Assembly (NCBI GenBank): GCA_001750625.1
Contig: MEIE01000002.1
Span: forward strand, 1 to 44,989
DNA: 44,989 nt
Source of the DNA: Candidatus Amphirhobacter heronislandensis
Lineage (GTDB): Bacteria; Pseudomonadota; Gammaproteobacteria; Tethybacterales; Tethybacteraceae
Reading direction: 5' to 3'
A program made the position numbers and the translations under genes. Under the pieces are notes generated by a model. The model searched no databases. It was not told the origin of the DNA and worked only from the letters and a program-made list of their open reading frames with translations. This document shows positions 10,845 to 26,795 of this stretch, in pieces; within the stretch, counting starts at the first letter, position 1, and every line of letters begins with the position of its first letter.

Positions 10845-10889
10845 ATGGACTGCGACGCCGCCAGGATCGCCCGCGCAACGCCGCGATGA
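10845..10889 (+). CDS. Putative 14-residue leader peptide [14 protein letters not shown], overlapping the kefB-like start
   Basis: ATG preceded by GGAAGGAGA; its TGA overlaps the ATG of the next CDS (ATGA); the downstream gene lacks an obvious SD of its own. Confidence 0.4.
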   Translation: MDCDAARIARATPR

Positions 10890-12901
10890 ATCTGCACGTC
10901 CCCGAATACATCTTCATAATGCTGGCGGCGAGCCTCGTGCTCATCACCGTCCTGCGCCGCTTCAAGCTGCCGACCATCTTCGGCTATCTGATCCTCGGCA
11001 TGCTCCTCGGGCCGCACGGCGCCGAGTTCTTCGCCGAGGGCACCGACGTCACCGGCATCGCCGAGCTCGGCATCATGGCGATCATGTTCTCGATCGGCCT
11101 GGAGTTCTCGTTCTCGCGGCTGATCACGGCGCGGCGGTACGTCTTCGGCATCGGCGGCTTCCAGGTCATGGGCTGCGCCGCGGTGGTGGTCGCGGTGATG
11201 AAGTACGGCCTCGGCTTCAACTGGCACGACTCGCTGCTGGCCGGCGCGGTCATCTCGCTGTCCTCGACCGCGGTGATCTCGAAGATGCTGATCGAGGAGG
11301 GGCTGCTGTCCTCGCCGCAGGGGACGCGCTCGATCTCGGTGCTCATCTTCCAGGACCTGGCCTTCATCCCGATGCTGATCCTCGCCAACTACACCACCGA
11401 AGGCGAAGGCGCCAGCGACTCGGTGCTCAGCCTGCTCGCCTCGAGCGTCGGCATCCTCGCCCTCATCCTGATCGTCGCGCCGCGGGTGATGCCGCTGGTC
11501 GTCGACTACTTCGCCAAGCTCGGCTCGAGCGAGATCTTCACCATCTTCGTCCTGACGCTGATCATGGGCATCTCGGTCCTGACCTACAAGGGCGGCCTGT
11601 CGATGGCGCTGGGCTCCTTCTTGACCGGCATGCTGCTGTCCGAATCGCGCCACCGCTTCATCATCCACGACATCATCAAGCCGTTCCGCGAGATCTTCCT
11701 CGGCTTCTTCTTCGTCAGCATCGGCCTGCTCATCGACCCGAACGCCTTTTACGAGTTCCTCGTGCCCATCGTCCTCGGCTGCCTGGCGGTCCTCGTCCTC
11801 AAGCCCCTGTTCATCTACGGCACCGTCAAGCTGTTCGGCTCGCACCACTGGACGGCGATCTACACCGGCCTGGCGCTGGGCGGCACCGGCGAGTTCGGCT
11901 TCGTGCTGCTGACGGCGGCGGCGGCGAGCACCGACAGCGACCTGCTGCAGATCCTGTTCGCGATCAACCTGGTCTGCATGGGCACGGCGCCGATCATGAT
12001 CGACGTGGCCCAGAAGGTCAAGGACCGGCTGCTGACGACCGACTGGCTGATCAAGGCCCGCGACCTCACCCGGGCGGCGCAGCAGGGCAGCGAGCTCGAC
12101 CACCACGTGATCATCGCCGGCTTCGGCCAGAACGCCCGCATCCTCGTCCGCCTGCTCAACCGCTACTCGGTGCCGTGGCTCGCGATCGAGAGCAACTACC
12201 AGCTCTTCGACTCGGCCTCCAAGGCTGGCCTGAACGTCATCTACGGCGATTCCTGCCAGGAGGAGACCATGCTGGCGGCCAACCTCTTCGCCGCCAAGGC
12301 CCTGGTGCTGACCCACGGCATCCAGGCGAACAACGTCCGGACCATCGAGCAGGCCCGCAACCTGCGCAAGGACCTGCCGATCTTCATCAAGGTCCAGGGC
12401 CAGGCCGAGATCGCCGAATGCCAGGAGGCCGGCGCCAGCTACATCGCGGTGACGTCGATGGAGATCGGCGCCGCGCTGGCGAAGGAGACGCTCCGGGAGT
12501 TCAACGTCAGGCCCGAGATGGTCGAGCACGAGGCCCGCACCATGCACGACACCATCGTCCAAGAAGGCGGCATGAACATCGTCCACGACATCGCGACCTC
12601 GTACTACGACAGCGAGGACGCCGACCGGCGGCGGCCGCACCCCCTCATCGTGGCCGAGAGCAACGGCCTGCCGGGCAAGGCCCGCGGCGCCTTCGAGCAG
12701 ACCCTGCAGAAGTTCGACATCGCCCTGCTGCGCATCGAGCGCGGCGACCAGCTGGTCGAGATGGTCAGCGCCGATTTCCTCGAGGAAGGCGACGTGCTGA
12801 TCATCGACGCCAACGATTTCCAGATGGACGCCCTGCTCACCAAGCTGCTGGACGACAGCGTGACGGCGGCCGAAGCCGACGCCCCGACGCCCTCATCTTG
12901 A
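10886..12901 (+). CDS. CPA2-family cation:proton antiporter with C-terminal TrkA-N (RCK-N) domain, KefB/YbaL-like
   Basis: 671 aa; [12 protein letters not shown], many TM segments, then [19 protein letters not shown] nucleotide-binding domain. Confidence 0.92.
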
Positions 12902-12926
12902 ATTTCCCCCTCCCTGCGTATATAAT
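12898..12926 (+). promoter_or_regulatory. Sigma70-type promoter of groESL: TTGAAT-N17-TATAAT
   Basis: -35 at 12898-12903, -10 at 12921-12926, spacer exactly 17 bp. Confidence 0.75.
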
Positions 12927-12940
12927 ATGCACGGGAGAAA

Positions 12941-12967
12941 TTGGCAGTCTCCTTGCGCGACTGCCAA
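12941..12967. promoter_or_regulatory. CIRCE-like operator TTGGCAGTC-N9-GACTGCCAA, candidate HrcA site
   Basis: Perfect 9-bp arms with a 9-nt spacer, the architecture of CIRCE (TTAGCACTC-N9-GAGTGCTAA); just downstream of the predicted +1 of groESL. Confidence 0.75.
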
Positions 12968-13013
12968 AATTCCTGGTAAATGTTCGTATTATCAGCATTT
13001 TAGGAGAAACAAC

Positions 13014-13316
13014 ATGAACATCAAACCTCTGCACGACCGCATCGTCGTCGAGCGCATCGAGGAAGACACCCTCAGCGCCGGCGGCATCGTGATCCCCGAT
13101 TCGGCCAAGGAAAAGCCGGACCAGGGCATCGTCAAGTCCGTGGGCCCCGGCAAGCGGACCGACGACGGCAAGGTCCTCAAGCCCGAGGTCAAGGTCGGCG
13201 ACCGCGTCCTGTTCGGCAAGTACGCCGGCACCGGGATCAAGCTCGACGGCAAGGAGCTCATGGTGATCCGCGAGGAAGACGTCCTGGCGGTCATCGTAGG
13301 CGGCAAAGGCAAGTAG
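13014..13316 (+). CDS. groES: Co-chaperonin GroES
   Basis: [46 protein letters not shown] upstream; the listed ORF start at 12927 is an upstream extension. Confidence 0.97.
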
Positions 13317-13354: not shown

Positions 13355-15001
<1,647 letters not shown>

Positions 15002-15026
15002 GTCTGGAACATCCCTCCATGGCCTC

Positions 15027-15061
15027 GAAGGCCCGGACGCGAGTCCGGGCCTTCGTTTTTT
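15027..15061 (+). terminator. Rho-independent terminator after groEL
   Basis: Perfect 12-bp stem GAAGGCCCGGAC-GCGA-GTCCGGGCCTTC followed by GTTTTTT. Confidence 0.93.
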
Positions 15062-26751: not shown

Positions 26752-26795
26752 CAAAGAAAAAAGGCGCGCTCCGCTTTCATGTCGCGGAGCGCGCC
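26752..26795 (-). terminator. Hairpin plus U-tract inside the ABC operon (attenuator or partial terminator between SBP and permease genes)
   Basis: Minus strand: perfect 12-bp stem GGCGCGCTCCGC-N9-GCGGAGCGCGCC followed by TTTTTTCTTT. Confidence 0.85.

Follow-up and report, generated by a model that had tools for sequence, protein, structure and literature searches.

HrcA represses groESL, and heat inactivation of HrcA relieves this repression. The CIRCE element (TTAGCACTC-N9-GAGTGCTAA), found at groESL in Geobacter and Desulfovibrio, is generally presented as strongly conserved among bacteria (PMC545781). The only solved HrcA is that of Thermotoga maritima, whose structure was determined without DNA (PDB 1STZ); no HrcA–DNA structure is found among deposited structures. 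A mechanistic analogy is available in FadR and NagR, GntR-family winged-helix proteins whose helix 2 has an arginine close to its start that contacts guanine (FadR Arg35; NagR Arg38, located in the first turn of the helix; PMC4333415). These regulators differ from HrcA in family and operator, and the alignment of their helices with those of HrcA is putative.

Here we analyze a 44,989-nucleotide stretch of DNA from Candidatus Amphirhobacter heronislandensis, referred to as the window, in which groESL is preceded by a 9-9-9 dyad that differs from CIRCE at position 7 of each arm. We consider it probable, from comparison with related sequences, that this dyad is an HrcA operator of a G7 subtype of CIRCE that controls groESL, and that base 7 changed together with HrcA.

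The groESL leader and the HrcA of this genome

The features of the locus are collected in Table 1. The sequence-only reading described a 9-9-9 dyad whose left arm departs from TTAGCACTC at positions 3 and 7, with compensating changes in the right arm. This description is correct in both respects. The dyad, TTGGCAGTC-TCCTTGCGC-GACTGCCAA, lies exactly where it was placed, with perfect 9-base arms and a spacer of 9. It begins 14 bases past the −10 box and ends 46 bases ahead of the groES start codon. Relative to TTAGCACTC and GAGTGCTAA, T1, T2, G4, C5, A6, T8, and C9 are kept in both arms, whereas both carry G3 and G7, so the exact consensus is absent. Like CIRCE, the dyad is a 9-9-9 inverted repeat in the groESL leader of a genome that encodes HrcA. 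Perfect 9-9-9 repeats of any sequence are not rare in 45 kb, and a second, GC-rich one occurs at 26766. What goes beyond chance is the placement in the groES leader, the agreement with 14 of 18 CIRCE letters, and a near-copy at the same spot in a same-family genome (G001). An Rfam search of the window gave no match.

Table 1. Features of the groESL locus in the window
Feature	Position	Strand	Basis
kefB-like K+/H+ antiporter gene (Na_H_Exchanger + TrkA_N)	10886..12901	+	Pfam domains
sigma70-type promoter TTGAAT-N17-TATAAT (predicted)	12898..12926	+	read from sequence; position kept in G001, G002, G003
CIRCE-type 9-9-9 operator (predicted), G at position 7, groESL 5' leader	12941..12967	.	sequence + hybrid homologue in G001 (L157 225-251)
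ribosome-binding site AGGAG of groES	13002..13006	+	read from sequence
groES (Cpn10, 100 aa)	13014..13316	+	PF00166, E 4.3e-34
groEL (Cpn60, 544 aa)	13367..15001	+	PF00118, E 8.6e-78
intrinsic terminator-like hairpin + T run, 3' of groEL	15026..15055	+	sequence

Allowing up to three mismatches, the dyad pattern matches once in the window (chance mean 0.02) and once in the whole 1.61 Mb assembly; no second operator is present assembly-wide at this threshold. A copy of the site at hrcA or dnaK is not supported for this genome. The hrcA gene has no dyad ahead of it, and a canonical dnaK is not found in the assembly, a draft that is 87.6% complete in 239 contigs and that places HrcA and the operator on different contigs. 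The regulon in this genome therefore rests on one site. One weak HSP70-family match (45 bits) lies at G000:C163 53456-54148 (L148), and a normal dnaK is missing, perhaps through incompleteness of the assembly.

Close relatives show related sites at the same place. The G001 site before groES, TTGGCACTC-N9-GACTGCCAA, is a one-mismatch hybrid of the window's dyad and CIRCE, and the order mates G002 and G003 carry canonical TTAGCACTC half-sites at groES. This distribution suggests a C7-to-G7 shift in the family, possibly by way of the hybrid. The sequence-only reading had staked its claim on an hrcA gene in the genome or a shared dyad in a related species; both are present, the latter as the hybrid.

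The single hrcA gene (G000:C222) is intact, encodes 357 aa, and lies on a contig other than that of groESL, in an unusual place between rnfB-like and htrA-like genes, as judged from ORF translations. Its product scores about 172.3–173.6 bits against PF01628 (cut-off 22.2) and clusters with the HrcA of G001 (tree support 0.9). It resembles the HrcAs of the order mates G002, G003, and G004 in its full length, N-terminal winged helix, and PF01628 C-terminal domain. Those proteins, however, carry PVGS[RK] at the start of helix 2, where the window's HrcA has TVSSE (TVSSERV) in place of PVGSR, and its recognition helix reads SSSSVRG rather than, for example, SPATIRN. The T. maritima protein likewise lacks the Gly and Arg (VSSQR). 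We do not regard PVGS[RK] as a defining feature of the HrcA family because it is also lost in many HrcAs that accompany non-C7 operators. A separate peculiarity of the window's family is the loss of the recognition-helix Asn (SSSSVRG here, L156 3137-4210; KAATVRA in G001, L204), which almost all other HrcAs keep. As a general cause of G7 this loss was rejected, since most other G7-type HrcAs retain the Asn (SATIRN).

Spread of G7 operators and covariation with helix 2

That the dyad is singular is not supported. A scan of species genomes (one per species) with the pattern TTRGCAGTC-N9-GACTGCYAA returned at least 116 stretches, with G7 sites in Clostridia, Chloroflexi, Patescibacteria, Xanthomonadaceae, Cloacimonadota, and others. 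Among the 116 G7 matches listed, 100 precede a heat-shock gene: groES (54), hrcA (18), rpoH (15), htpG (6), clpB (2), groEL (2), hsp20 (2), and dnaK (1), with the hrcA, rpoH, htpG, clpB, hsp20, and dnaK assignments made partly by signature peptides. Because these are genes of the HrcA-regulon type, the exact CIRCE consensus is not treated as defining. An hrcA gene was found in 47 of 50 searched genomes among those with G7 sites. Sites whose base 7 is G instead of C in each arm form a widespread CIRCE subtype. No precedent for TTAGCAGTC with HrcA was found in the open-access literature, subscription papers lying mostly outside the search, and the subtype is apparently undescribed so far. Among the matches listed from a neutral scan covering 369 genomes in the window's class, C7 sites predominate and some C/G hybrids occur.

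Operators with A at position 7 (TTAGCAATC) also occur, as at G405:C121 (L304) and G016:C34 (L323), mostly with HrcAs lacking GS[RK]. The G7 form TTAGCAGTC-N9-GACTGCTAA is found close before rpoH in Stenotrophomonas, Luteibacter, Lysobacter relatives, Algiphilus, and Competibacteraceae (L033, L049, L055, L068, L072, L077, L079, L080, L111, L112, L115, L116, L123, L125, and L136). Such placement suggests that HrcA may control sigma32 in Xanthomonadaceae and others. In Geobacter, a canonical CIRCE is predicted at rpoH (PMC545781).

The idea of an altered HrcA recognition code, put forward for positions 3 and 7 together, is supported in part. Position 3 is an ordinary variant: TTGGCACTC is common among the canonical sites listed in the class scan and also appears in canonical Desulfovibrio sites (PMC545781). 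The A-to-G change there was accordingly rejected as part of a new code, G3 being common in C7 sites. Base 7, by contrast, covaries with residues of HrcA helix 2. With HrcA sequences aligned to a common profile, genomes having C7 operators only carry the Gly of PVGS[RK] in 178 of 180 cases and the Arg/Lys in 167 of 180. Where at least half of the half-sites are non-C7, the counts fall to 22/78 and 19/78, in a comparison for which the G7 genomes and the hybrid gammaproteobacterial-type genomes were picked by operator and not by HrcA motif. A Clostridia sample not selected by operator type, in which 144 hrcA genes were each paired with their own upstream site, gives 126 C7 versus 0 other sites with GS[RK] and 11 C7 versus 7 other sites without it (Fisher p = 1.4e-7). 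The corresponding counts in the Gammaproteobacteria-like set are 39/5 versus 4/6 (p = 0.0026).

Scans of all alignment columns single out the same residues. In each of the three subsets the top rank goes to the Gly column; the Arg/Lys column comes second in two. A tree-paired scan again puts both columns at the top, at ranks 1 and 2 among 335. The tree, built without the winged-helix region and after some short or partial HrcAs were dropped, contains 17 non-C7 clades, 15 of which lost the motif relative to their nearest C7 relatives, which kept it. One contrast sets the window's genome (SSE) and G001 (SSG) against order mates with GSR. A Pagel test is also significant (LR 40.6 and 52.9), although the values are inflated, since two of the 57 control columns, all outside the winged helix, gave higher scores; for this reason, it was set aside as decisive proof. 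The association is not strict. HrcAs with GS[RK] stand beside G7 or hybrid sites in L272, L282, L206, L205, and L238. C7 operators also occur with some GSx HrcAs. These data indicate that an altered recognition code at base 7 is likely. We also lean toward the more specific proposal that the presence or absence of Gly-Ser-Arg/Lys where helix 2 starts sets position 7 of CIRCE, and that this code has switched about 14–17 times in the sample, in Clostridia, Chloroflexi, Patescibacteria, Xanthomonadaceae, and the window's gammaproteobacterial-type family, with hybrids as intermediates.

Predicted mechanism and competing readings

In the mechanism we propose, HrcA bound to the dyad just downstream of the sigma70-type promoter would block groESL transcription, and heat, by inactivating HrcA, would lift the repression. 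At canonical sites, the first helix-2 turn would use its Arg/Lys to read the G opposite C7. Such a contact is plausible because FadR and NagR read guanine through an Arg placed early in helix 2. Loss of the contact and of the preceding Gly would then leave base 7 free to become G or A. An AlphaFold model of a G7-type HrcA (L122; mean pLDDT 87) places helix 2 at residues 28–35, the Gly column at residue 27, just before the helix, and the Arg/Lys column at residue 29, its second residue, in the first turn. The groESL site is most likely ordinary in function, as a predicted HrcA operator, and of interest for its specificity.

The same operator could also have arisen if HrcA tolerates C, G, or A at base 7 and the helix-2 changes are unrelated lineage markers, with no code at all. 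In favor of drift of this kind are the mixed operator sets within single genomes (G392, G413, G379, and G384), the hybrids that accompany canonical HrcAs in L272, L282, and L261, and the inflation of the Pagel test. It would not be expected to bring two neighboring winged-helix columns to the top of the tree-paired scan or to yield 126 to 0 in Clostridia, and the symmetric G/G before the 100 listed heat-shock genes means that both arms change together. We judge drift unlikely. A more distant proposal is that another repressor binds the site, with groESL under sigma70 and that regulator, or under sigma32. The HrcA of the window's family is indeed divergent, with a changed recognition helix that lacks its Asn, and divergent rpoH-like genes exist in the genome. 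Nevertheless, the same-family hybrid, in the same position, ties the site to canonical CIRCE, and the same type of site precedes hrcA itself in other lineages, which makes this reading very improbable.

The main role of the repeat might instead be that of a hairpin in the groESL leader RNA, affecting mRNA stability or serving as an RNA thermometer. The leader does fold better than shuffled sequences (z −3.0), with the two arms paired, but any perfect dyad folds as RNA. Neither the fixed 9-base spacer, nor the near-fixed arms across phyla, nor the covariation of base 7 with HrcA would be expected of a hairpin, and we regard a primarily RNA-level role as extremely improbable. An HrcA operator whose base 7 changed with its repressor is the reading we retain. 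If true, a common second CIRCE spelling tied to two repressor residues would allow HrcA regulons missed by consensus searches to be found, and it would provide a simple example in which a global repressor has changed along with its operators, with the residues involved named. The base-7 rule, if true, also predicts a non-C base 7 in the CIRCE of T. maritima, given the VSSQR of its HrcA.

Sigma factor usage at groES

The promoter proposed for groESL, TTGAAT-N17-TATAAT, is present as described, with the −35 box at 12898-12903, the −10 box at 12921-12926, and a spacer of 17 bases. It matches 10 of the 12 consensus bases of TTGACA-17-TATAAT. Its −35 box shares bases with the stop codon (12899-12901) of the kefB-like gene that lies upstream and also adjoins groES in G001. 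A sigma32 promoter would combine CTTGAA with a CCCCATNT −10; here CTTGAAT is present, but the −10 is GCGTATATAAT. Class relatives in which hrcA was undetected (G006, G007, and G011) have sigma32-like CTTGAA..CCCCAT-type groES promoters and no such dyad. The order mates G002 and G003 have overlapping CTTGAAA...CCCTATAAT elements at groES, and several relatives keep the C-rich −10. In the window's genome, this C-rich element is gone at groES and the sigma70 elements are left, so a putative sigma70 promoter is a reasonable reading. The overlapping promoters of the order mates may mark a path by which sigma32 control gave way to sigma70 control.

The overlap of sigma32-like and sigma70-like elements in order-mate groES promoters was noted at L157 225-251, L188, and L194. 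The divergent rpoH-like genes of the window's genome are two tandem sigma genes at G000:C72 (L155), 597-1456 and 1568-2878, the first of which is apparently truncated or frameshifted. Both carry a lysine-rich insert after KRYDPDKKGK and score below the TIGR02392 cut-off.
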